Shown here in pieces: positions 9,885 to 23,066 of a stretch of DNA of 64,000 bases. Origin of the DNA: an uncultured Rubripirellula sp. (GTDB taxonomy: Bacteria; Planctomycetota; Planctomycetia; Pirellulales; Pirellulaceae). The DNA is taken from the NCBI GenBank assembly GCA_938045805.1, contig CALIBL010000002.1, positions 124,001-188,000 of the forward strand, given 5' to 3'. A program made the translations under genes and the position numbers. Each line of letters starts with the position of its first letter. The first letter of the stretch is position 1. The notes under the pieces are model-generated. The model was not told the DNA's origin and did no database searches. It saw only the letters and a program-made list of their open reading frames with translations.

Positions 9885-11942
9885 CTAACTGCTACTTGAA
9901 TCCTGACTTGCACTTGGCTCATCAGGTGCCCCCTCGGTCGATTGGCCGTCAGCAGAATTATCAACTTTTGGCTTTTTTTCCCGAGGTGGCAACTTACCGC
10001 CATTTTCTTGAGCCTCGATGTAAGCAAGTTCTAAATCCTGAACTAACTTCGGAGTAATGTGCTTTTGCAACAGTTCTCGAGTATTCGTAAACATCTCGTC
10101 AACCTTACGGCTTTGATTAGCATTTTTTGTCCCAAGAAGATTGATGAAATCCTGCTGCTTCTTACCAATCGCTCCATATAAGGCATCACTAGTAGGCTGA
10201 TCCCGTAATGCAGTCAAAAGCTCTTCTGCCTTCTCCATCTCACCACGCTCTAACCTAAGTAGTATTCGTGCTTTAAACAGCTCACGTATGGCAACCAAAT
10301 CAATGATTGAGTTCTGGGCGCCGCGAATATAAGCCTCGGCTTGGAGTCGAATATCATCACCAGATAAGTCCGCTACCACATTGTGGTATAACCCAGGCAC
10401 CAACGGCAAACGTGCAAGAATGGCCCCACCATTTTTAACGTACAGTAGCCTTAAAGGATCATCTGTTGCCTCAACGCGAAGGACTCCATCCCAATTGGTT
10501 CGCCCAACAAACGTCATGTCTCCTGACTCTAAGTCTTTCTGGTACAGCTCATAACCAATCAACGGAAAGTCTGGATCCCGTTGCAAATGCAGACGCACAT
10601 CAGTCGAACTTAATTCGGGGCGAACTCGTAACGCTGTTTTAAAGGTTCGCTTGTTTTTTCGACCTTGCAGACCGCCACCACGACCAGAATAGAAGTCCAT
10701 CTGGACGTTTCTTTCTTGGTAACCATCTAGTTCCGTTACATGTAGATAGGCCCAATCCAAGGCCCCAATCATGATCGGGTTGCCATTGCGATCATTCTTC
10801 CTGGTCATCGGTTCTAGAATATCGCCAACGCGGATCCATGCAGGAGAGTGGTCGCGATCTTTTTCTTTGACAAGGCCACCCGCTCTCAATAACCCCAAAG
10901 CAGATCTCTGACCAGCGTTCTCAATTCGCACCATTGGTCCAAACGCTTTAGTTAAGCAAATACCGATACCCCTTGGTAGAAAACTAGCGCCGGTTGAATT
11001 GACGCTCGCGACAGGACCGAAATGCCGCATGAGAGTATCGAACTCAATCGCTTCAATCCGATTGGGCACTTGACTGGTTTTGACTGAAACAATGAACACC
11101 TTGTCATACTTTTCAACCGTCTGCCCCACCAAGTCGGCGATTTCGGGAACGATTAACTTAGCTTCAGGACTTAGTGTGCTAGCGATCCCGCGAGAAACGA
11201 GAATCGCTTCAATTCCCTTTTCATTATTACTCTCCGCTGAAACGGATTCGGAATCATCAACCGCTGCGTTGCTCGGGGCCGATTTTTCATCGTCAGCCTC
11301 GTTGTCACCACTTTGCTGTAATGCTGATTGATTCCATAAATCCCTGACGATGGATTCGTCACCGACAACCGCTTTAAACTTTCCCTTGATTCCGTTGAAG
11401 TCGTCATTGGCGACCTCCGCTGCTCTTCTAAGAACCTCTTCAGCACGACCCTCCGTTATGTAAACACTATCGACAAATTCACCTACATTTTTAGCAACAC
11501 GAATCCTAACGGCATCCGGATGATCACGTTTAACGGCTAATACGGGATCAGAAGCCGTTAACTGGTCATAGGTTAAATCTGATAAACCACGCTTTGCAGC
11601 AGTCGCTACGGAGGGTGGAGCGACAGCAAAATCCAGCCTCCACACTGATTCAAAATCTCGAGCTAAGTAAGCCCGAATCGCCGGCTCCAACGAAGCAAGA
11701 GAAACACGATTGTCGTCGGTTACGTACCACACCAAAACTTTATACGGATCATAGTCCCACGGGATCTCTTCCTCAATTGATTCGTCGGCTATTGTTGAAC
11801 CACCTGCTGCTACGGCCTGAGCCAATCCAGCTGCCTGAGATGTTTCTTCATTGGAAGCTGAACTGTTCTGAGCACGTATCGACCCAGTCAATACCAACAG
11901 AATAACGAACGCCGCCATGGATCGCATTTTCATACTAATCAT
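9885..11942 (-). CDS. Secreted protein of unknown family, last gene of the ExbB/ExbD operon
   Basis: This 685-residue protein begins with a signal peptide (MISMKMRSMAAFVILLVLTG, cleavage after IRAQ). The rest is soluble, with an N-terminal part containing VLVWYVTDDNRVSLASLEPA, beta-rich middle segments, a helical region near residues 550-640 and a Ser/Glu-rich tail ending in SSSS. I do not recognise the family. The ATG at 11942 overlaps the stop of the upstream solute-binding gene by 4 nt (ATGA), indicating translational coupling and supporting this start. It is the last of eight minus-strand genes. Its position implies a role on the outer side of the inner membrane together with the upstream products. 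That role is inferred. Confidence 0.85.
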   Translation of the reverse strand: MISMKMRSMAAFVILLVLTGSIRAQNSSASNEETSQAAGLAQAVAAGGSTIADESIEEEIPWDYDPYKVLVWYVTDDNRVSLASLEPAIRAYLARDFESVWRLDFAVAPPSVATAAKRGLSDLTYDQLTASDPVLAVKRDHPDAVRIRVAKNVGEFVDSVYITEGRAEEVLRRAAEVANDDFNGIKGKFKAVVGDESIVRDLWNQSALQQSGDNEADDEKSAPSNAAVDDSESVSAESNNEKGIEAILVSRGIASTLSPEAKLIVPEIADLVGQTVEKYDKVFIVSVKTSQVPNRIEAIEFDTLMRHFGPVASVNSTGASFLPRGIGICLTKAFGPMVRIENAGQRSALGLLRAGGLVKEKDRDHSPAWIRVGDILEPMTRKNDRNGNPIMIGALDWAYLHVTELDGYQERNVQMDFYSGRGGGLQGRKNKRTFKTALRVRPELSSTDVRLHLQRDPDFPLIGYELYQKDLESGDMTFVGRTNWDGVLRVEATDDPLRLLYVKNGGAILARLPLVPGLYHNVVADLSGDDIRLQAEAYIRGAQNSIIDLVAIRELFKARILLRLERGEMEKAEELLTALRDQPTSDALYGAIGKKQQDFINLLGTKNANQSRKVDEMFTNTRELLQKHITPKLVQDLELAYIEAQENGGKLPPREKKPKVDNSADGQSTEGAPDEPSASQDSSSS

Positions 11943-14305
11943 TGCCCCAATCGCCAGTTATCTGCATTCTGATACAGCGAAACAATATCGGAACCCATCC
12001 CGATCAAGTCACGTCGGTACGCATAGGAATCAACCATTTGCCACAAGGGTAAAACGGGTAATTCATGATGAACGATTGAATGCAAATCCAACAATCGATC
12101 TCTTACTTCTCGCCAATTTTTTGCCTCTTCAAGTTGACGCAAACCAAGACCAACTAACTGGTCTTCGCAGCGAGCCAATCCGCTCGGCCCGAGCAAACGC
12201 CCCGCATCAATCACTGGCTCCCAAACCGCTGCTGAGACATAGACGATGTCCGCTATGTTCTTCTCACGATCCGGAAATGTTTGCCCCACCTCCAGTTCAA
12301 CTAACTCAACGGTCAAGCCAAGAAGTTCCCATTGTGTACGGATTCCTTCGCATGCAACGCGCGACAAATTGTCAGGTGGATAAGCGAGCCTAATTGGAGT
12401 CATCTCAGGCATGGTCTCTTTTTTTCGCTCTGCTTCCGATTTCATTTGGTTAGCATTCATCGCGATCAGCAACTGTGCCAACGGAGGCTCATAAGATCTA
12501 GGCTCGATATTCTGGTCATACGCGTAACCCAGTGGGTCGTTCAATTCGAGCCCCGCAGGAAACGGACCTGACAAAACCCTGCATCCTTCAGAGTCCAGTC
12601 CCTCCAGCAGTTCGCCAGTGAGAATATCCTGTCGATTGATTCCATAGAGCAAGGCTCGACGAAAGGTTCTCTGAGCGAGATAAGGATGTTCCGAACACGG
12701 AATCAGCATATGCACAGTTGGCAACGGATAATTAGCAACTTTAATATCCCGGCTCTTGCTCAATCGTACCGCGTCTGCTGGAAAGAGTTGGTCGAGCACA
12801 TCAATTTTCCCCTGAAGCAATGCGTTGACACCATCGGATGCAGATGCACTTCTTATCTCTACAATCTCGCGTGGCTGAGTCGGAACCTTGGGAGAAGCGG
12901 AAAGGACGTAGCGAACCAAATCTTTTTCAACCGCTTCACGCCGATAGTCACCGGTTGGTGATAGTGGCTCTCCCCCAAACCAACTTCCATCTACGGGAAT
13001 TTGAAGAAGGCATGTTGGTAAGACATGAGGGCGCCGAAGATTGAAGGTAACTTGTTGAGGACCCTGCAGTGCAATCGACTCTACCGCAGAAGCCCATGGT
13101 GCAAAATACGTCTCTGATTCCGGCTTGGCACGATCAGCCATAACATCAGCCAAATAAAAGGCCTGTATCTTATCAAGAGGTGGAACAATCTCATTTGGCT
13201 GTAGAAACAAGTCGAACTGCATTCGATCGGGGCTCATCTCCACCTCACCGAAGATAAAATCGTATTCACCACCCTCTGGTCCCGCTCCCTGTATCTCAAA
13301 CAGAGTCCGATAGATCAAACGTCCCGCCCTTCTGGCACCCCAGTTATCCATTCTTGTTGGATCCAACGCAGTCGCACTCTGCAACACACCCACATTGACC
13401 AAGGGATAGATCGTATCAATCTCGCGTATCAGCTCTTGCCCACCCTCGATGTCGGGTTTGAGATAAACACTTTCGCGAGCAAGTAATCGTGCGGATCGAT
13501 AATCCTTCGCGTCTCTCGCTGCGATCGCTTGTCCCCGTTTTACCTCCGCCATACCTAAAAATTCAGCGTTCCATTTGGCAATGGATTCAAGAGTGTTCCC
13601 AGAGTAGTCCTTCGTAAGTCGTGCAAGTAACTGCTGTGCGAGATCTAATTCTTGCTCGTTCATCAACTGCTGCATCAGCTCATCTGTGACTTTGGAGATG
13701 GCTTGCAGCACCGTGGACTGCTTGTATTCCGGCGCGTAGCGTCTTAATTCCTCAAGCATTGCCAGGGTCGATTCAAACTCACCGCGATTCGCTCTTCCCA
13801 CAGCATCTTGATAAAGATAATCACACCGCAGTTCCCTCAACCCTGGCCTTGCGGGATAGTCACGAATTAGTATGGATAGGAATGGGTAGGCTCCCACAAA
13901 GTCTCCAGCCGCGATTCGTTCTTTGGTTTCTCTCTCAAGGCGTACCTCCCAAAGATCAAACCGCTCGATCTCAGTCCATTTCGTAGCAAATTCTTTTCCC
14001 TCGATCCCCAAAACCTGAAACCGCAATGATCCCGTTGGATTCGTCGGGGGCGTACGCCCGGGGAAACTAATGGGAAATACCTTAGCCCATCCACCGCCTG
14101 AGGCTTCGGTGAAAAAAACGAGGTCGTGAGGTTCCTCTTGCAGCAAACCTAACCCGAGATCCGGAGGATCTCCAGTCTGGGCATAGTTGACGGATTGGGC
14201 TTCAACCTGGCTTACCAATAAGGTAGCAGCTACTGTTACCCAGAGTCCGACACGGTGTGAGCAGGTATACATCGATCGTTTCACGGTTGAGAAGAAATAG
14301 CTCAC
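11939..14305 (-). CDS. Extracellular solute-binding protein, family 5 (SBP_bac_5-like), with helical N-terminal region
   Basis: The 788-residue protein begins with GTG at 14305, sharing one base with the upstream stop, and has an N-terminal signal segment ending SQVEAQS. Residues of about 100-300 are helical and TPR-like. The second half resembles family-5 oligopeptide/nickel-binding proteins: RRALLYGINRQDILTGELL is the typical segment, followed by TPIRLAYPPDN and ELPVLPLWQMVDSYAYR near the end. Classical members feed ABC permeases, but no permease or ATPase gene is present here. The gene is coupled to a PQQ-propeller gene upstream and a secreted protein gene downstream. It may bind a ligand in the periplasm for the ExbB/ExbD-linked system, which is inference. 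Confidence 0.85.
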   Translation of the reverse strand: MSYFFSTVKRSMYTCSHRVGLWVTVAATLLVSQVEAQSVNYAQTGDPPDLGLGLLQEEPHDLVFFTEASGGGWAKVFPISFPGRTPPTNPTGSLRFQVLGIEGKEFATKWTEIERFDLWEVRLERETKERIAAGDFVGAYPFLSILIRDYPARPGLRELRCDYLYQDAVGRANRGEFESTLAMLEELRRYAPEYKQSTVLQAISKVTDELMQQLMNEQELDLAQQLLARLTKDYSGNTLESIAKWNAEFLGMAEVKRGQAIAARDAKDYRSARLLARESVYLKPDIEGGQELIREIDTIYPLVNVGVLQSATALDPTRMDNWGARRAGRLIYRTLFEIQGAGPEGGEYDFIFGEVEMSPDRMQFDLFLQPNEIVPPLDKIQAFYLADVMADRAKPESETYFAPWASAVESIALQGPQQVTFNLRRPHVLPTCLLQIPVDGSWFGGEPLSPTGDYRREAVEKDLVRYVLSASPKVPTQPREIVEIRSASASDGVNALLQGKIDVLDQLFPADAVRLSKSRDIKVANYPLPTVHMLIPCSEHPYLAQRTFRRALLYGINRQDILTGELLEGLDSEGCRVLSGPFPAGLELNDPLGYAYDQNIEPRSYEPPLAQLLIAMNANQMKSEAERKKETMPEMTPIRLAYPPDNLSRVACEGIRTQWELLGLTVELVELEVGQTFPDREKNIADIVYVSAAVWEPVIDAGRLLGPSGLARCEDQLVGLGLRQLEEAKNWREVRDRLLDLHSIVHHELPVLPLWQMVDSYAYRRDLIGMGSDIVSLYQNADNWRLGQ

Positions 14306-17300
14306 TAGTTCGGCACCTCGGTTGAATAAACCACACCCTCTGCACCTGGCACCAACAGTGTCTGATCATCGTAAAGTAAAGGCGTCGATGAAATTGGCTG
14401 TCCAAGATCGATCTCACTTAATAGTTCGCCAGTGCGCCTATCAATCACAACAATCCAACCCGAGCGTCCGGCCAAAATGATTTGATCACCATTTCGCAAA
14501 GGCTGACCAACAACTTCCCCGGCTGGCACAACCACTTCAAATCGCTGCTGACCATCACCTTCAAAAGCTCGTAAGGCGCCGTCATCGGTCCGAATCAAAG
14601 CAATGTCACCATGCGCGACTGGGCCCCAGTTGATCCTTCCATTGAGAAGGGTTCGGAATGTTTCCGATAAAGTGGTTAAATCGAAACCAATCAAAAAATC
14701 AGCTGCCGGCCCGACGGTACTCGCTACCATTGCATTTTCGAGACGAGTTGAGGGTCCAATCAATTGAAATTCAAGATCTTTTGACTGAAGCTCACGGATT
14801 TGTTCACCGACACGCAATCGATAAATTTTCTTACGACTGTCAGCGAGAACGACCTGATCCGCGTCATCTGGCAACGGAATCGGCTTTGTCCACTGCACCT
14901 TGCCAACAGGATCGCTTGGTGGCTGAAATGGCGTTGCAATAACCGCGCCCGTCCGCCAATCCACCAGCACAACACGACCACTGTCGAGGGGCAAAAGTAA
15001 ACCACCCCCTGATGCGACTCCTCCGGCGGTGGGGAGGGCTGAATCAAGTCGCATGGTTACCCGCCTTAGTTTTTCGGTTTCTCGATTCGGGTCATAAATC
15101 AATAGCGAGGGATCTCCCACTTCATTGAGCATCACTCGACGTGTTTCATCAATTTCAATAGGGTCGCTAAATCGAATCGCTACCGCTCGATCACCGGGAT
15201 TTTCCAGCGGCTTTTGTCCGCCTGCAAACTTGCTCTTGCTCCCATCAAACTGCAAGTTGAAAAGCGCAGCTTGGGACGTTACGACGTGAATGCCGTCAGA
15301 AGTAGGCTGTAATAGAGAGACGGGAACTCCCACATCTGTACGCCATATCTCTGATCCCGTTTTTGGATTGGCTGCCGTAATCCTGATGGCAGATGTATCA
15401 CGCAGAACTCGAGCATGCACCAAAGCTTCATCAGTTGCATAGGGCTTACCAATAAACGTATCTAATTCATGAATCGACCAATCTCGTATGACACGCCCGG
15501 TGTTAATTTGCAATTCATAACGTCCGAGTCGTGTTCCGGTGATCCACATCTGACTTTTGCCAACAGCCATCTGTGTAGATGTGGGTTCTTCATAAAATGC
15601 AGGAAGCGTTGCGGCAACCGTCACCTGCTCGCGCTCAGCAGTGGGTTCAATATCGTAGACCGTTACCTCACCGCGATCAGTGAGAACAATCAAACGCCGG
15701 CCATTGACAACTGGATCAACAATTACGTTTCCGATCAACCGAAACGGCGCCTGTGCCTGCACAAGAGTCTCGCCACGTTCATCAACCCGAAGAACATGAA
15801 CATTCGCGTAATCCGCACCCGCATTCTCAATCACGAAAACGTGCCCCAGTAGCGGCACGGGCGCGACCGACACTGTCGAGGATTCATGCCCAAGGTAATA
15901 GCTCTCAATACAACTACCATCGCGACTGTTAAGGACGTAGAGATTGCTGTGGTCACCAGCCAAATAAGCTCTGCGCAGACGATCATCGATACCCGGCCCA
16001 ATATTCAAATTCTGTGGTATTTGCGTTGCCCATTTGGCATCACCTGAAATCGCATCGAAAGCGAGTAACCTGCCAGACTCAGTTGCTACATAGATGTCAT
16101 CTTTGACTGCAATCGGCTCGCTGAAGTTCTCGTTGATTCCAGATCGCCAAGCGACAGTCCCATCACTCTCGCTGCAGCGCAGAATCTCGAGCGTTGAGGA
16201 CTGACTCAAAAGCACACCGTCTTCCAACTGCACCGGCGGCAAATCCTTGGCAGCCCCAACATACTTGCGCCACGCAAGTGAACCACTTTCACCGTCAATG
16301 GCCAGAATGGAACCGCCAGCCCGGAAATACAATGTTTCTCCTCTCAAGTCTGGAACTGAACCTCCCTCGAGCGATGTCAAGACGACATTACCCGTCGTCG
16401 CGTTCTCCGGTTCATCAGTACTAACTTTCGGTAATTCACTAGACGATTTAACCAACGTTTGCTGAATTTCGCTCGCACGCTTGATCAATGTCTCTAATCG
16501 TTCATGGTCATATAATTCAGGGAACGACTGGAGCAACTGCTTCCGAGTGTCATATGCCGCCTTGGTATCACTCTGATTGAGAGAACCAATCATCGATGCT
16601 TCCGCTTCATCGAGTCTAATATTGCGGCTAATGTCCCTTTGGACTCTGGCACGAGACTCAACGACATTTTGTATTTGTGATGCCAGAGTCACTTTCATCG
16701 ATGACATCATGTATTGAGGGTTTTCCATCAGCAACAACTGCTCATCTAGCACCTGCAGAAGGCTCTGTTTTTTTTCCGTCTCACTCGCTCGACTTGCCGA
16801 TTCAGCCAGATTCGCTGCAATGTCCACCATCAAGGCAGCGAGATTCCCCCTCTCTTCGTTCATCCCCTCCTCATCAGCAATCAGCGGCAACTTTTCTTTT
16901 TCTAACTCGACCGCTTGCCAAGGCTCCTGCTTGAATGTTGCAGCCTTATACAACTCCGTCATCGTGATTCTCACGCGAGACATGGACGAATACTGATGTT
17001 CGTTACCGAAACTCTCGAGAAACCCAACGTACATCTTCTGTGCCAAATCGTAGTTCTGATTATCGTACTGCTCATTAGCTCCTGTAATCACTTGATCTGC
17101 GTCTTCACGAGTCAACACAAATGTGATTCCACCACCAACTAAGAGCAGGGCAAGAATGATCCCGATGTAACCGTAAATCTTGAAGGAATCCCATTGAGAC
17201 TTATTGGGATCTGCTTTTTTCAGTTTTGATTTTGGTCTAGCCGGTTCACCAACTCCAGATGAATCATCTTCTAGCTCACTCACCTCAACAGCCTCGACCG

Positions 17301-17673
17301 CAATCGGTTGACCTCCGTCCATCGAGCCAGCGTCATACAATGAGCCTGAGGCCTCATAGAGCGGTGCGGCCTCCTCAGGCTCGACCTCCACCACTTCAAC
17401 CTCGTCGTCAGTCAAAATGTCGAGCTCACCAATTTCTTCAACCAACTGATCGGCCCCATCGTCGGTTGTGTCGTATTCACCACTTCGCAGCTCACCGATT
17501 AGCTTGGTTGCTTGGAAACGTGTGAGGTGCCCATTATCCACCAGCAACTTAGCAACGGCCTCGGGAGTGACGCGAGTTCCACCCTGCACTAACTGCTCGC
17601 GCAACGCTTCGATAATCTCTTGGTCGAGTAGACCGAGTCTCTCCAATCGATCAATCAATTCATTTGCTAACAT
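14305..17673 (-). CDS. Membrane-anchored PQQ-type beta-propeller protein
   Basis: This 1122-residue protein has four parts. Residues 1-66 form a helical domain with DNGHLTRFQATKLIG, a motif also seen before kinase domains in planctomycete proteins. Residues 70-150 are acidic. One membrane helix lies at about 167-187 (YIGIILALLLVGGGITFVL). The large outer part has a helical segment followed, from about residue 420, by repeated PQQ/BamB-like blades such as LYFRAGGSILAIDGESGSLA and AFDAISGDAKWATQIP. The orientation is presumably N-in, with the propeller in the periplasm. The stop overlaps the next gene's GTG by one base. No catalytic PQQ-dehydrogenase residues were recognised, so a scaffold or binding role is more likely than an enzyme. 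Confidence 0.85.
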   Translation of the reverse strand: MLANELIDRLERLGLLDQEIIEALREQLVQGGTRVTPEAVAKLLVDNGHLTRFQATKLIGELRSGEYDTTDDGADQLVEEIGELDILTDDEVEVVEVEPEEAAPLYEASGSLYDAGSMDGGQPIAVEAVEVSELEDDSSGVGEPARPKSKLKKADPNKSQWDSFKIYGYIGIILALLLVGGGITFVLTREDADQVITGANEQYDNQNYDLAQKMYVGFLESFGNEHQYSSMSRVRITMTELYKAATFKQEPWQAVELEKEKLPLIADEEGMNEERGNLAALMVDIAANLAESASRASETEKKQSLLQVLDEQLLLMENPQYMMSSMKVTLASQIQNVVESRARVQRDISRNIRLDEAEASMIGSLNQSDTKAAYDTRKQLLQSFPELYDHERLETLIKRASEIQQTLVKSSSELPKVSTDEPENATTGNVVLTSLEGGSVPDLRGETLYFRAGGSILAIDGESGSLAWRKYVGAAKDLPPVQLEDGVLLSQSSTLEILRCSESDGTVAWRSGINENFSEPIAVKDDIYVATESGRLLAFDAISGDAKWATQIPQNLNIGPGIDDRLRRAYLAGDHSNLYVLNSRDGSCIESYYLGHESSTVSVAPVPLLGHVFVIENAGADYANVHVLRVDERGETLVQAQAPFRLIGNVIVDPVVNGRRLIVLTDRGEVTVYDIEPTAEREQVTVAATLPAFYEEPTSTQMAVGKSQMWITGTRLGRYELQINTGRVIRDWSIHELDTFIGKPYATDEALVHARVLRDTSAIRITAANPKTGSEIWRTDVGVPVSLLQPTSDGIHVVTSQAALFNLQFDGSKSKFAGGQKPLENPGDRAVAIRFSDPIEIDETRRVMLNEVGDPSLLIYDPNRETEKLRRVTMRLDSALPTAGGVASGGGLLLPLDSGRVVLVDWRTGAVIATPFQPPSDPVGKVQWTKPIPLPDDADQVVLADSRKKIYRLRVGEQIRELQSKDLEFQLIGPSTRLENAMVASTVGPAADFLIGFDLTTLSETFRTLLNGRINWGPVAHGDIALIRTDDGALRAFEGDGQQRFEVVVPAGEVVGQPLRNGDQIILAGRSGWIVVIDRRTGELLSEIDLGQPISSTPLLYDDQTLLVPGAEGVVYSTEVPN

Positions 17674-17764
17674 GATTCGTAAACGTCTGGGAATAAAAAG
17701 GGCAACAAACTATCTGATAATCACCGTCCCGAGACGGCTCGTGAAAAACTAAAACGAACAAGAA

Positions 17765-18523
17765 TTAATCAAATTCCTCAACCTGTGTTACCTCCAGCTG
17801 GGCATAGCCGGCAATTGTCCCTGCATCCATCGCATCCACAAGTGATTTCAATTTTGCCATTTCATGAACTTTAACAACTAATCTCATCCCGTCGCTATTT
17901 CCAGCAATCGCTTCTCGAAGAGCTGAGATCAAATTCTGCTTGCCTGGCGTTTCTCGCTCCCACTCAGGTGCCATCACTAGAAACGAACCAAACTCATCCA
18001 CCTGCAGCTCCACCATATCCAACTCTTCGACCTCTTCCTCCTGCACGCTTGTGCTGGGAGCATCGGTCTGCTGCCTTGGCATCTCAATTGACTTTTGCAA
18101 GCTGAACGCAGCGGTCACCATAAAAAAGATCAAAAGCAAGAAGGTGACGTCCACCATCGGTGTCATATCCATCTCTTCTTCTGGACGCCGTTGCCGAGCT
18201 AAGACCGGCTCGTCATCCTCATCGTCATCGGCATCCTGCTTACTCGTTCCCGAATGACTCGAGTGCACTGACGACTTTGTATGACTTTCATTCAGCGTGG
18301 CCGCATCGCTTTTGTCACGCAAGCCAACAGAACTCAAAGAGGCGAACGATGGCTCAGCGTCGCCAGTCGAATTACCTGCCTCAACAGGAGCAACCTCAAC
18401 TTCACTCTCCATCGGAACAAGCATCGGTGACTCACACTTGGGACAGCGAACACGCTTGCCCGCAAAGCGGTCATTGACCAGATGCTTCGCATCACAACTG
18501 TTACAAGTGAATTGAATCGACAT
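17765..18523 (-). CDS. ExbD/TolR-type biopolymer transport protein with N-terminal zinc ribbon
   Basis: The 252-residue protein fuses two parts. Residues 1-36 are a zinc ribbon with CxxC pairs at Cys7/Cys10 and Cys27/Cys30 (FTCNSCDAKHLV, VRCPKCESPML). After a polar acidic linker comes an ExbD/TolR domain. Its single membrane helix carries the family signature MDMTPMVDVTFLLLIFFMV, with the proton-carrying Asp at 125, followed by a periplasmic domain. ExbD and TolR couple proton flow through ExbB/TolQ to movement of a partner in the envelope. It is the second ExbD in this operon, 92 bp upstream of the PQQ gene. The cytoplasmic zinc ribbon is not part of classical ExbD and could serve as a docking or sensing element. 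Confidence 0.9.
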   Translation of the reverse strand: MSIQFTCNSCDAKHLVNDRFAGKRVRCPKCESPMLVPMESEVEVAPVEAGNSTGDAEPSFASLSSVGLRDKSDAATLNESHTKSSVHSSHSGTSKQDADDDEDDEPVLARQRRPEEEMDMTPMVDVTFLLLIFFMVTAAFSLQKSIEMPRQQTDAPSTSVQEEEVEELDMVELQVDEFGSFLVMAPEWERETPGKQNLISALREAIAGNSDGMRLVVKVHEMAKLKSLVDAMDAGTIAGYAQLEVTQVEEFD

Positions 18524-18638
18524 GGCAGAAATCTTAGTAGACGAAAAAACTTGTCAAAACCAGTTAAGTAGAGAGCAAATCAAAAGTCTTTGGCTCAATG
18601 CGAAAACGCAAACAGAATTCATTAACTTCAAAACCTGA

Positions 18639-19124
18639 TCATTGCTCTTTTACTGCAATGTAAGTGGAATCAAGATCTTCAAAAGCATCACCGATCAGCT
18701 TCTGTATTCGCGTCACGTGTCCAACCTTAACTTCAGAATCACCGAAAAGCATGACATGCTCTTTGGGTGTGCCGAAAGACTTCTCCAGCTCCCCAGTAAT
18801 GTATTCAATGATCTCCGATGCCTGCTCATTTTCGTCTGAACTGAACTCGGTACCGTCTGGTGTGCTCAAAACAACACTGTCGCTACCAGATGGCTTTATG
18901 AAAATAACTGCCGATGTCTTAGCGGAAATCGCCAACCCATTATCTGCCTCAGGAATGGTGCCAATTTTGGTTGGATCCATTGTGGAGCAGACAATGAAGA
19001 AAATCAGAAGGAGAAAGGTGATATCAATCATCGGCGTGATATCCATTTCGTCATCCTCACGCTTCTTGCGTGGAACCACGAAGTCATCATCGTCTTCTTC
19101 AATTAGGTCGTCATGATCACTCAT
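18639..19124 (-). CDS. ExbD/TolR-type biopolymer transport protein
   Basis: From the ATG at 19124 this encodes 161 residues. A GTG three codons upstream is a less likely start. An acidic cytoplasmic N-terminus precedes the ExbD signature MDITPMIDITFLLLIFFIV, which contains the conserved membrane aspartate, and a periplasmic domain of about 110 residues follows. It sits between exbB-like and second exbD-like genes on the same strand. Pairs of different ExbD proteins can occupy one ExbB channel or serve two channels. With only one ExbB gene here, a mixed complex is possible but not shown by sequence. Confidence 0.92.
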   Translation of the reverse strand: MSDHDDLIEEDDDDFVVPRKKREDDEMDITPMIDITFLLLIFFIVCSTMDPTKIGTIPEADNGLAISAKTSAVIFIKPSGSDSVVLSTPDGTEFSSDENEQASEIIEYITGELEKSFGTPKEHVMLFGDSEVKVGHVTRIQKLIGDAFEDLDSTYIAVKEQ

Positions 19125-19200
19125 TGCAAACACTCTCTAGGAATAAGCTCGCGTTCGATGCAACCTTTGCCACAAACACGGAAGACCGCAAAACCCACTT

Positions 19201-19833
19201 TTACTTCCTATCGCTCTCAGCAAGCGCGTCACGGTAAGAGGCCATAAACCTCGCCAACCCAGCACCCACTAAATCTTCCATCTTTGCGATACGAATATTA
19301 ACGTTTGCAACCAAGATCATTAGCGGGATGGCAATCGCCAATCCACACGCCGTTGTTCTCAAAGCAATGTTGATGTCGCTTGCCAATAAACTTGGCTCGA
19401 CGGACTCCGCGGTGGCGAGTGTCTCGAAAGCCCCCATCATTCCGAACACGGTCCCAAACAAACCGATCATTGGTGCACTCTTGATGACCGTACTCACCCA
19501 CGAGAGGCGGTACTCGATATCACTCATCACATCTCTTTGGAACCGATCCATCACAAACTGTCGTGACTTTTTGTAGCCCATGTCACGATGACGCACCGCC
19601 ATCTCGACAATTTGCGGAATCGCTCGCTGATCCCCGTTGCAGTACTCGGAAATACCGTCAAAGTCTCCCTGTTCGAGCATCTGATTGATGTCATCCATAA
19701 AGAGATCTTGCTGATCTTCGGTTCTAAATCTTTTGTTTTTGACCCGAGTCCAAACAATCACGATGCAAAAAAGCCCCCACAACGCTACCGCAGCGAGTGC
19801 GCCGTATGTCGCGTTGGAGATCAACTCGAACAT
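19201..19833 (-). CDS. MotA/TolQ/ExbB proton channel family protein
   Basis: The 210-residue protein has three predicted membrane helices, near residues 9-29, 112-135 and 160-180. The helix region WVSTVIKSAPMIGLFGTVFGMMGAFETLA and the following ALRTTACGLAIAIPLMILVANV are the hallmarks of the MotA/TolQ/ExbB family. Five such subunits normally surround ExbD/TolR dimers in a proton-driven motor of the inner membrane. Length fits TolQ/ExbB. It lies 76 bp upstream of the first exbD-like gene and about 141 bp downstream of the TonB-shaped protein gene. No tolA, tolB, pal or classic tonB gene accompanies it. Confidence 0.93.
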   Translation of the reverse strand: MFELISNATYGALAAVALWGLFCIVIVWTRVKNKRFRTEDQQDLFMDDINQMLEQGDFDGISEYCNGDQRAIPQIVEMAVRHRDMGYKKSRQFVMDRFQRDVMSDIEYRLSWVSTVIKSAPMIGLFGTVFGMMGAFETLATAESVEPSLLASDINIALRTTACGLAIAIPLMILVANVNIRIAKMEDLVGAGLARFMASYRDALAESDRK

Positions 19834-19974
19834 GTTCTAGTCCTTTGTTTAAAGAAAACGGATGGGTGTTGTGTCCACGTCAAATTAAGTTATCCATCTT
19901 CCCTCGGGAAAATGATTTTCTACCGGAAGTTGCCCCGGAAGATTGTCTTCCAATCAGTAACGGTGACGAGTTGA

Positions 19975-20901
19975 TTAGCGAGGCTTCCTATAACGCTGGC
20001 TGACCACCTCAAAAATATAATTTCCGCCATCTGACTTGCTCTCAAAAACTGTTTTTGCAATTTCAGTAACCGAGGGATGTCCCTTTTTGGTGGAGTACTC
20101 AAGCTCAATCACAGCAAGCTGATCCTCTAGTTCCTTGGGAATGAACTTGAGCATTTGCCGATTAGCAAGTTGAACACCAGCTGTGTTGAGTAGTTGCCGG
20201 TCAAATTCCATCAAGGGACTGGGGCTATTCCACATGAAGTACAGTCGCTTCTCTGATGCGGTATCTTCAATGCGTGACTTTCGGATTCGGGTAGAAAGAC
20301 TTGAGGCCACATCAACACCCTGGATGGAACCACCGATGGCGCCCAATTCGATTTTGAAATAGTCAAGTTGGGTCGCGTAAGAACGAATGTCTCGTGCGGA
20401 AAAGTTAAGCTGCCAGCGTTCAAATCTCGGAATAATGTCTTCACCTTCACCCGGTGGACCGGGTGGACGACTATCTCCGGCTCCGGTGCCAGAGGTTGTT
20501 GCCGTCGAAGCCGTGTCAGTTGTCGCTAGTGCTCCAGCAACGGTGCTCACCGCATCCGTAACCGCCTCAAGAGTATCCTGAAGCGTTGGCTCCATTAACT
20601 CCTCCACTTCCTCAGCTCCGGGAGGCTCAAAGTCACGTTCAAATCCTTCGGGATTTTCACCACGCCCGGCGGGCTCTTCAATCGGTGGCATGATCGGCGG
20701 TGGAGAATAAGTCCATCTCGACAGGATGAAGATAATCACCAACATGCCTACAAATGTACCGATGAAAATAATCAAGGCCATAAAAAACGAAGTGATCGAA
20801 TCAAAACGACTCGTCCGCAGTTTCTCCCTCTCTTCAAGTCTCGCCGCGACTTGAGGGTTATCAATTGAGCCTTGAGATGGCGAATTTGGAATCGATGCCA
20901 T
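19975..20901 (-). CDS. Single-pass membrane protein with TonB-like architecture
   Basis: I do not recognise the family, but the layout of this 308-residue protein is notable. It has a short charged cytoplasmic N-terminus, one membrane helix at about residues 38-62 (FFMALIIFIGTFVGMLVII), a Pro-rich stretch right after it (YSPPPIMPPIEEP and PPGAEEVEE), and an Ala/Thr/Gly/Pro linker to about residue 155. A compact C-terminal domain of some 150 residues follows. This is the arrangement of TonB and TolA, which are energised by ExbBD and TolQR, the gene products encoded next door. No sequence match to the TonB C-terminal fold is evident by eye, so it is called TonB-like in shape only. Confidence 0.75.
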   Translation of the reverse strand: MASIPNSPSQGSIDNPQVAARLEEREKLRTSRFDSITSFFMALIIFIGTFVGMLVIIFILSRWTYSPPPIMPPIEEPAGRGENPEGFERDFEPPGAEEVEELMEPTLQDTLEAVTDAVSTVAGALATTDTASTATTSGTGAGDSRPPGPPGEGEDIIPRFERWQLNFSARDIRSYATQLDYFKIELGAIGGSIQGVDVASSLSTRIRKSRIEDTASEKRLYFMWNSPSPLMEFDRQLLNTAGVQLANRQMLKFIPKELEDQLAVIELEYSTKKGHPSVTEIAKTVFESKSDGGNYIFEVVSQRYRKPR

Positions 20902-20995
20902 GCGATATGGACCTGAAACAACAACTTACAAGAAAGGCGATTAACGCTCGGTGTGAGTAGCGCAACCAAAACTGTTCATGACAGACTAACAGACA

Positions 20996-22678
20996 CTAAA
21001 GGTCATAATCGAGGAAGACATACTTCGGATTGATACTGCGGTACCACTCCCTCCATTCCTGCTGAGCTTGATCGATTTCAACTCCAGAAGGATCATCCGG
21101 CATCCCATAACCATCAAACTTTCGACTTAAAAATCGCAGGCCGTCCCGAGCGTAAAGCTTGACCGGGCCATCTGGATCACTAAGAGCAAAAATCAAGGAC
21201 GGGACGACTCGCAAGTCGTCGCTACGCGCCAAAAGCTGTGCGGCTACTCGTCGCGCTTGCCAAGATCGGCTGCCCCTTACCAATCTTTCCAACCGATCCA
21301 ACTGGGCGGCGCGGGTCGTGGGGTCTTTAGCCAACTGCAAATCATCGGGTAAAGACTTCCCTTCTGTCTCACCTGCACCATCCTTTTCCAAGATATCAAG
21401 CATATCTGTCACCTGAGCCGCAACCGGACGTCCCTTGATCTGCGTCCCATCCACTCGGATGTCCGTTGTGTCACTAGGCAACCCGTATCCACCTGCAAGA
21501 CTACCTTGGCTCATCGTGAAGATTGTTTTCTGCGTACTGCGAATCATAAACAGGAGAGCAAATGCTGTGGCAATTGGCTTGCTTTCCCAAGTTTCCTTCC
21601 CATTGAACGAACCATCTGGCTGCTGGAGTCGCCGAAGTTCGTCAATTCCTTGGTTGTACCAAGCTGGGCTCGAATCCTTTGGCAGTCCCTTGGCGATCTC
21701 CCAAAAACTCTCTAGCCGTTCAAGAGTGTACAGGCGATAAAAATAGTAACTATCGGATGCCTTCGCTGGATTCGCCTGCCTCCATCGATTCAACAAACTT
21801 ACTGAGCCCAAAACGGGTTCAGGAGCAATTTTGACTCTGCTTCGACGAGATTTATTCTCGTCTTCTTTGTAAAGCTTGATTGCCTCAGGGAGCCCCACGA
21901 TTCCAGGATCTTTGTCATCGGTTGTGTCACCCCAAATTCTCAAGGCATCTCCAGCGATCAAAACACTGCTACCACCTGCTAAAGCCATCGATTGACTCAC
22001 TCCGGAATGGCTGTGATTACGCGCACCGGTCTGAGCAGATAACGGTCTTCCTGGGCCAGCATCACGGGCAAAGTAAGGCCAAGCTCCCTGGATGTCCTGC
22101 ACCCTCATCAACCACTGGAGGGTACTTGCAACCTTGGCGTAATCGAGAGGCAAGCCATTTCTATCCAAAGTCCAAATTGCTAGTAACGCGTACTGCGCCT
22201 GCGAGATATCACCCTCGGATAGCTCGTCAAACATTGGGTATCCAAATGCACCATTCCGTCCCTGATGATCGAAAAGAAACTTCTGAACGATCTCAAGCTG
22301 TGGTCGATATCTTTCAGGGTCTACCTCTGCAAACAAAAGCACACAAACCGCAGCCTCGTAATTTCGCTTTGCTCCACTCGCCCCACGTGTCGGCAGCGTT
22401 CCTACAATTTGCTCAGCAACACGGAGACCCCTTTTGACAACAGGATGTTCAGGGTCGTGACGACACTTGTGGTGCGCGTAGGCAACCAAAACCGGAACGC
22501 CTGAAGAACCGGAAAAACTTCCTGGTTCTCCCGGAAGATCATTATCCGTAAGCTTTTCGAGGTACTCCAAACCACGATCCACCATCTTGGTTACCACCGG
22601 GTCGGTCGGCGTATAAGCACGTGCCGCCGGAGAGCCAAACAGAATTACTGCAAACGCGGTAAGTGCGCGTAGTCGCAT
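20996..22678 (-). CDS. Secreted prenyltransferase/squalene-oxidase-repeat (alpha/alpha toroid) protein
   Basis: The ATG at 22678 follows an AAGGA and opens a signal peptide (MRLRALTAFAVILFGSPAAR, cleavage near ARA). The body of the 560-residue protein contains alpha/alpha-toroid repeats as in squalene cyclases and prenyltransferases. Examples are FLFDHQGRNGAFGYPM, WLMRVQDIQGAWPYFARDAG and ELRRLQQPDGSFNGKETW, which carry QxxDGSF-like turns. The cyclase DXDD catalytic motif was not found, and the protein is exported, so it is probably a binding or structural protein and not a terpene cyclase. A HEAT-like segment follows near the C-terminus. It is the first gene of the eight-gene minus-strand operon. 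Two direct repeats lie about 130 bp upstream. Confidence 0.85.
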   Translation of the reverse strand: MRLRALTAFAVILFGSPAARAYTPTDPVVTKMVDRGLEYLEKLTDNDLPGEPGSFSGSSGVPVLVAYAHHKCRHDPEHPVVKRGLRVAEQIVGTLPTRGASGAKRNYEAAVCVLLFAEVDPERYRPQLEIVQKFLFDHQGRNGAFGYPMFDELSEGDISQAQYALLAIWTLDRNGLPLDYAKVASTLQWLMRVQDIQGAWPYFARDAGPGRPLSAQTGARNHSHSGVSQSMALAGGSSVLIAGDALRIWGDTTDDKDPGIVGLPEAIKLYKEDENKSRRSRVKIAPEPVLGSVSLLNRWRQANPAKASDSYYFYRLYTLERLESFWEIAKGLPKDSSPAWYNQGIDELRRLQQPDGSFNGKETWESKPIATAFALLFMIRSTQKTIFTMSQGSLAGGYGLPSDTTDIRVDGTQIKGRPVAAQVTDMLDILEKDGAGETEGKSLPDDLQLAKDPTTRAAQLDRLERLVRGSRSWQARRVAAQLLARSDDLRVVPSLIFALSDPDGPVKLYARDGLRFLSRKFDGYGMPDDPSGVEIDQAQQEWREWYRSINPKYVFLDYDL

Positions 22679-22810
22679 TTTCCTTGTGTCCTGACAGTCG
22701 GTCGAATGAAAGGTCATAAACGAATGCTCGGCTCGTGGCTTGGATAAGTTTTTCAGACGGTATCCTCAGACAAAGAAGGGATAGCTCTGCAGGGGGTACG
22801 TCTCGAGAGT

Positions 22811-22976: not shown

Positions 22977-23049
22977 GGTCAGGTAGCTCAGTTGGTAGAG
23001 CACGGCCCTGAAAAGGCCGGTGTCGGCGGTTCGAGCCCGCCCCTGACCA
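22977..23049 (+). tRNA. tRNA-Phe (GAA)
   Basis: The 73-nt sequence folds as a standard cloverleaf. The acceptor stem is GGTCAGG with CCTGACC and discriminator A. The D arm is GCTC-AGTTGGTA-GAGC. The anticodon stem is CGGCC/GGCCG around loop CTGAAAA, giving anticodon GAA. The T arm is GGCGG-TTCGAGC-CCGCC. CCA is not encoded. Two terminator-like hairpins follow directly. Confidence 0.97.
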
Positions 23050-23066
23050 CTCAGACAGTCTTATCA

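Follow-up and report, generated by a model that had tools for sequence, protein, structure and literature searches.

A run of eight minus-strand genes in the 64,000-nucleotide stretch of an uncultured Rubripirellula sp. analysed here (contig CALIBL010000002.1, positions 124,001 to 188,000; hereafter the window) probably encodes, at a probability of roughly 0.7, a class-level Ton/Tol-like machine for force transduction across the envelope, driven by the proton-motive force, independent of receptors and equipped with periplasmic partners. The open reading frames (ORFs) span 9885-22717 in the ORF listing of the window and encode, from first to last, a secreted alpha/alpha-toroid protein (P0001), a TonB-shaped single-pass transducer candidate (P0002), an ExbB/TolQ-type channel (P0003), two ExbD/TolR-type proteins (ExbD1, P0004; ExbD2, P0005), a membrane-anchored propeller (P0006), a secreted solute-binding protein (SBP; P0007) and a further secreted protein (P0008). 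The arrangement of these eight genes is conserved well beyond chance, and the unit differs from an ordinary Ton or Tol system. Families within the window were assigned by a Pfam scan, while homologous loci were found by family-profile searches; the ORF listing, Pfam and the family profiles bear out the initial annotation, in which eight minus-strand genes of these families had been named.

Conservation of the gene order

ExbB was counted as orthologous at an E-value of at most about 1e-50 (paralogues score around 1e-20), and such an ExbB was found in 48 of 60 genomes, source genome included. This gave 49 ExbB-anchored loci: the window, one in each of 47 other genomes, and an additional one in G037, which has a second copy. 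Matches below 50 bits were dropped from the gene-order tallies and those below 80 bits from the motif and segment counts, and the paralogue loci L083-L088 were omitted from both kinds of tally. All eight genes occur in order in 29 of the 49 loci, and the seven genes from the TonB-like gene to P0008 do so in 38; among the 20 loci without all eight, about ten lie at contig ends, seven have no adjacent toroid gene and three (L065, L079, L082) are real exceptions to the order.

When the TonB-like gene served as anchor over the class, 48 of 50 loci gave a pattern: the full eight in 12 and the same without the toroid in 11 (23 with the seven in order), toroid, TonB-like, propeller, SBP and P0008 genes in five, the TonB-like gene alone in nine, and partial sets in the rest, with the ExbB-ExbD1-ExbD2 block preceding the TonB-like gene in one locus (L167). 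Among 79 named loci (Rubripirellula, Rhodopirellula, Stieleria, Roseiconus and others), 21 have the full eight, 12 the seven, two have the ExbB and TonB-like genes swapped, and 13 show no gene of the set but the TonB-like one, some of these loci being on short contigs. The three locus sets share genomes; L035 and L195, for example, lie on contigs of equal length (27012 bases).

The initial annotation had let its proposal hang on conservation of this order in related genomes, and the arrangement was found to recur throughout the taxonomic order, and also in a further family of the same class. The idea of one eight-gene unit thus stands as far as the conserved order is concerned, except that the toroid is often encoded elsewhere and that the unit is spread over the class.

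Relocated components and joint presence

That relocated genes are nevertheless retained is the strongest sign of one function. ExbB was searched for in eight genomes whose cluster has no motor genes, and in seven of these (six of family f111, and G054) an orthologous ExbB is encoded elsewhere (1e-46 to 1e-78), outscoring the other ExbBs of the same genome by about 50 bits or more. The ExbD1 and ExbD2 genes adjoin the relocated ExbB gene in all three f111 loci that were fetched at greater length, as well as in G054 (L079). A different split is found in G031, G274 and G341, where ExbB-ExbD1-ExbD2-propeller-SBP-P0008 lies away from the TonB-like gene. Altogether, the moved ExbB was recovered as an orthologue in 10 of 11 genomes, the exception being G055. 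In three f111 genomes (G413, G363, G421), the TonB-like gene and the P0008 homologue share a contig but are some 25-26 kb apart, so that insertion or local shuffling seems to have split the cluster there.

The toroid behaves likewise: a near-full-length toroid (305-575 bits) was found in all 16 searched carriers that have none at the locus, and in none of four non-carriers, where partial matches (up to 160 bits) end before the HEAT part; carriers also show such partial matches. Two of the 16 matches (G028, G029) read through one stop codon. In G040 the toroid and the operon are both at contig ends and are possibly neighbours, and in G029 both are on one contig. Components are thus mostly retained in the genome after scattering.

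Presence and absence are also joint within the order, where the TonB-like protein and P0008 are both found in 57 of 70 genomes and both missing from 12, the one discordant genome (G513) having only the TonB-like gene, at a contig end. Genomes of the order that lack the unit fall in families f3, f6, f8, f9, f16 and f18. Over the phylum, the TonB-like protein is found in 21 of 294 genomes, all in the class of the source organism, and none of the unmatched phylum genomes among the rows listed is own-class, judged by row order. Class-wide, 212 of 248 genomes have the TonB-like protein and 194 of 248 have P0008, with families f112 and f115 giving weak matches.

The motor

The channel P0003 (19201..19833; this and all following gene coordinates are on the minus strand) matches MotA_ExbB at 3.6e-22, and its Thr128 and Thr161 are invariant in all 24 aligned rows. 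Both P0004 (18639..19133; ExbD 2.3e-13) and P0005 (17765..18523; ExbD 2.3e-20) have one membrane segment by hydropathy. The membrane Asp motif (Asp37 in P0004, Asp125 in P0005) is present in 48 of 49 ExbD1 sequences by regular expression, the 49th carrying the Asp by eye, and in 47 of 47 ExbD2 sequences. The channel threonines and the membrane aspartates are presumably the equivalents of the E. coli motor residues. ExbD2 additionally has an N-terminal zinc ribbon, its CxxC..CxxC pattern being present in 40 of 47 sequences (Zn_ribbon_4 at 9.6e-4, under that family's cut-off).

A motor with one TolQ-like and two TolR-like proteins is also the make-up of the Agl-Glt system of Myxococcus. The N-terminal part of ExbD2 weakly matches GltJ (3.8e-4; 19.7 bits, where the cut-off is 450), which would fit an appendage or gliding motor of that kind, moving stalk, fibre or holdfast material. 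However, the GltJ match is limited to the short ribbon part and no Glt protein was found among the eight genes, which makes such a motor distinctly improbable.

The source genome has four further ExbB genes (loci L083-L086). In L083, ExbB lies alongside two ExbDs; in L084 and L086, an ExbB-ExbD pair is accompanied by a large membrane protein for which the toroid profile gives weak matches (37 and 29 bits).

The transducer candidate

P0002 (19975..20901) has one hydrophobic segment by hydropathy (residues 33-65), and in its AlphaFold2 (AF2) model (mean pLDDT 75.8) the membrane helix (residues 33-62; 20716..20805) is followed by a linker of low confidence and a C-terminal periplasmic domain (residues 159-305; 19987..20427), in which pLDDT is 82-95 in blocks of ten from residue 161. 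No Pfam family was found for P0002 at 0.1, nor for any of 23 family members (P0002 included) at 0.01, and both P0002 and P0008 are left unnamed by Pfam, NCBIfam, PHROGs and PADLOC scans. Profile searches against the PDB gave chance-level matches only (best E-values 0.082 for P0002 and 0.75 for P0008). Comparison of the P0002 model with the PDB by Foldseek (best E-value 0.16) found no relative, and in the VIA structure search the Z-score was at best 3.9 for the helix and 3.1 for the C-terminal domain. TonB, TolA and vWA folds are absent among the structure matches listed for P0002, which excludes none of them.

Within the P0002 family, the helix has Ser38 in 49 of 57 rows, a small residue at 42 in 57 of 57 and Gly48 in 56 of 59. 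The helices of TonB and TolA carry an SHLS motif, according to the available text of PMC12204202. By column counts, a histidine in the helix core was found in none of the 59 rows, P0002 included; four rows have a histidine only at 31, 32, 33 or 62. The description of P0002 as TonB-shaped is thus right for its topology, but not for a TonB_C match or the SHLS histidine.

The picture changes in more divergent relatives. Among the 11 divergent loci that the P0002 profile picks up (families f112, f115, f13 and f20), 9 have the pattern [STA]xxxHxxxxxx[LMIV] in the helix, L190 and L192 being the two without it; in two other loci (L054, L126), the same expression hit a stretch that is not part of the helix. 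Of the nine, G398 has a divergent copy of the unit (two TonB-like genes, ExbB, ExbD1, ExbD2, propeller, further ORFs, SBP, P0008), and in another, L191 (f112), weakly matching ExbB and ExbD genes adjoin on the opposite strand. A helix histidine in divergent relatives suggests that P0002 derives from a TonB-type motor-binding helix. From the alignments, P0002 would then be such a helix joined to a different C-terminal domain, with the histidine lost later. A pattern for an ExbD-binding D-box after the transducer helix is described in the accessible part of PMC10907165. In many relatives, a VPVxxxE stretch follows soon after the helix by eye, in P0002 itself less so.

The closest published idea found, as far as the available text goes, is that of the vWA force transducers of PMC12204202, which in the PVC group are encoded next to TolQ and a TolR pair. 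Shared with these systems are a TolQ-like protein with two different TolR-like proteins and a three-part transducer that is not TonB. The published systems have, in the same text, the SHLS histidine and a vWA fold of their own, whereas P0002 lacks the histidine, has no vWA match among the listed matches, and stands among partner genes that differ from theirs. A C-terminal domain without a found likeness would add a third build beside the TonB/TolA and the vWA type.

Tandem copies of the TonB-like gene occur in L054, L220, L227, L228 and L246. Rhodopirellula, Stieleria and relatives have lone paralogues (L240, L244, L247, L249, L252, L267); in the 20 kb read, these loci show no match of at least 50 bits to any of the other seven profiles. 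In G398 (L193, L286), three ORFs lie between the propeller and the SBP gene, one of which starts with a zinc ribbon.

Secreted and anchored proteins as likely partners

Sec-type signal peptides are seen by eye at the start of the toroid, P0007 and P0008, and lipobox-like motifs are rare among their homologues (1 of 34, 1 of 41 and 4 of 40, respectively). The toroid P0001 (20996..22717) matches no Pfam family above its cut-off. Its family profile matches squalene-hopene cyclase (2.9e-12) and then, at the C-terminal part, HEAT-type designs (8.6e-32), in line with an alpha/alpha-toroid followed by C-terminal HEAT repeats. The initial annotation let the gene set reach to 22678. An ATG is indeed in frame there, 13 codons inside the ORF, and translation likely starts at it, while the ORF itself extends to 22717.

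P0006 (14305..17673; PQQ_2/BamB 8.4e-25) consists of an N-terminal domain, one membrane helix at about 163-190 by hydropathy, a helical part and the propeller, and is thus a propeller of the BamB/PQQ type anchored in the inner membrane; its profile matches BamB at 1.9e-17, ranking after designed propellers. N-termini like that of P0006 are known from planctomycete kinases. By eye, this N-terminus (window 17480-17673) also resembles the starts of ORFs that directly follow the operon in L058 and L076.

P0007 (11939..14305; SBP_bac_5 7.2e-14) joins a part that is TPR-like by eye to a family-5 solute-binding protein, the profile of which matches AgaA (4.1e-19), DppA (2.1e-15) and NikA. P0008 (9885..11942) has no Pfam family. 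Its AF2 model (mean pLDDT 84.3) shows a multidomain protein with a helical C-terminus, in which residues 445-528 match 3e8v (Z-score 9.6 over 80 residues, 2.3 A), i.e. a CnaB/transthyretin-like domain. Matches of P0008 to CorA helices (Z-score 9.5), to periplasmic-binding domains (9.3, 102 residues aligned) and to an F1-ATPase barrel (8.3) are near the tool's common-match level and were not used.

Receptors, TonB and Tol proteins in the class

Plug, TonB_C and TolB_N were surveyed in 98 genomes of the class, each of the three matching 3 of 14 control genomes (E. coli among those positive for TolB_N). Plug was found in 27 of the 98 genomes, TonB_C in 17 and TolB_N in none; the source genome, which is 93.86% complete, has no match to any of the three. 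The TonB-like protein is matched in 91 of the same genomes, 70 of which are clear carriers (E-value 1e-30 or better), and Plug is absent from 49 of the 70 clear carriers and from 65 of the 91 with any match. As for the eight genes themselves, Pfam agrees with the initial annotation that they include no TonB receptor, TolB, ABC permease or ABC ATPase (flanking ORFs were judged by eye with respect to permease and ATPase). Likewise, no Pal or OmpA family was found among them by Pfam, PF00691 not having been searched genome-wide.

With the Ton system the unit shares the ExbB and ExbD families, the membrane Asp of ExbD, the channel Thr of ExbB, and a single-pass transducer with a linker and a C-terminal domain. 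Xanthomonas campestris likewise has its genes in the order tonB-exbB-exbD1-exbD2. Such topology and gene order would fit a TonB system serving TonB-dependent receptors encoded elsewhere, and the ten Plug genomes without TonB_C could use the unit in this way. In the other 17 of the 27 receptor genomes, however, a separate TonB_C protein is present, and the unit here differs from Ton by having no TonB_C match, no SHLS histidine, no Plug in its source genome and four extra envelope proteins. Since most clear carriers have no Plug at all, the surveys largely refute an energiser of receptors for carriers without receptors, and as a general account it is highly improbable.

As in Tol-Pal, a TolQ/TolR-type motor is combined with a propeller and a TPR-like part in one operon, and with TolB_N missing from all 98 genomes, the unit could stand in for Tol-Pal: the motor and P0002 would hold the two membranes of the envelope in alignment as the cell divides, the propeller taking a TolB-like role and the TPR-like part of P0007 a role like that of CpoB (CpoB and other Tol-Pal parts being as described in the available text of PMC12204202). 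On the other hand, 12 of the 70 order-level genomes do without the unit, its genes include no Pal or OmpA family, and the propeller is of the BamB type and membrane-anchored, while a solute-binding domain is foreign to Tol-Pal. A Tol-Pal stand-in ranks second among the possible roles but is, on balance, doubtful.

The proposed machine

In the favoured reading, a Ton/Tol-like force-transducing machine with periplasmic partners, an ExbB pentamer with an ExbD1/ExbD2 heterodimer would use proton flow to pull P0002, whose novel C-terminal domain would engage a partner in the periplasm. Likely candidates are the secreted SBP, P0008 and the toroid, together with the membrane-anchored BamB-like propeller, with which P0002 would form a complex through which force is transferred. 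By this pull, a ligand could then be captured, released or handed over within the periplasm. Handling of a ligand or macromolecule is the tentative first choice of role, and the least certain part of the proposal; it is favoured because an SBP is present without a permease among the eight genes and because receptors are rare. The C-terminal part of P0007 is of the same family as DppA, AgaA and NikA, the SBPs of ABC importers, but P0007 differs from these in its long N-terminal TPR-like part, in the lack of a permease and an ATPase gene among the eight, and in staying clustered with the TonB-like gene in the majority of intact loci read.

Several observations weigh against this machine. The C-terminal domain of P0002 is tied to TonB, TolA or vWA neither by Pfam nor by fold, the motor-binding SHLS histidine of TonB and TolA is missing from P0002 and its close relatives, and there is no known outer-membrane part of the unit. 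The ten Plug genomes without TonB_C imply that a P0002-type protein could serve receptors there. In G055, ExbB is at paralogue level only (best 2.9e-21), which makes it a true exception to retention; its locus L192 has the toroid, TonB-like, SBP and P0008 genes and a short propeller ORF, and no motor genes. The three f112 genomes searched likewise have paralogue-level ExbB only, and five of six f112 loci are without a clear linked gene, the sixth being L191. Outside the order, agreement is looser (TonB-like protein in 154 of 178 genomes versus P0008 in 137 of 178), and genomes with only P0008 exist, e.g. G415 (f112). The 12 order-level genomes without the unit further show that it is dispensable, and conserved order can come from descent alone.

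The spacing of the genes also bears on this. From the toroid to P0008, the gaps are 94, 141, 67, 115, 91, -1 and -4 bases, so that the P0006 and P0007 genes overlap by one base and the P0007 and P0008 genes by four. The overlaps given for the last three genes in the initial annotation are therefore right for the ORFs as called, whereas its short gaps are in fact moderate (67-141 bases), at which internal promoters are possible. The promoter scan (6 found versus 13.2 expected) and terminator scan were uninformative.

Such gaps between the first genes would suit two separate units, i.e. a motor and an ordinary uptake unit (with its ABC permease elsewhere) that stand in an old operon by descent. 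SBPs of the P0007 kind normally feed ABC permeases, and G055 retains the other genes without an orthologous ExbB. Against this, components mostly stay in the genome after moving separately, and are lost together, which makes two unrelated units quite unlikely.

Significance and possible cellular context

How work at the outer membrane is energised in planctomycetes is at issue here: 71 of the 98 class genomes have no Plug and all 98 have no TolB_N, yet 70 clearly carry the transducer of the unit and 91 show some match to it. The eight genes thus provide a deletion list for macromolecule entry into the periplasm or for envelope upkeep during budding. No description of the operon was found in the literature searched, among the matches listed and with subscription journals mostly outside it. 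A link between the operon and the salt-induced genes exbB (RB12053) and exbD (RB12055) in Rhodopirellula baltica could not be made from the accessible part of PMC2754498.

In a bolder reading, P0002 would be the founding member of a new force-transducer family, and the unit would power the crateriform structures. These are press-stud contacts between the membranes of Planctomycetia, thought to take whole macromolecules into the large periplasm. According to the available text of Boedeker et al. (PMC5394234), they link outer and inner membrane, dextran binds their fibres in Planctopirus limnophila and Gemmata, and the uptake system is called still to be characterised. Phycisphaeraceae are reported to be without crateriform structures (PMC8882080, as accessible), which fits the confinement of the TonB-like protein to its own class; this phyletic fit is suggestive, as a correlation only. 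Isosphaeraceae are described with crateriform structures (PMC7716859, as accessible), and f112, if it is this family, may count against the idea by having only a divergent, mostly unlinked version of the unit. An engine of crateriform structures is, all considered, unlikely.

Upstream of the operon, a tRNA-Phe gene (22977-23050, plus strand) lies 259 bases from the first ORF.

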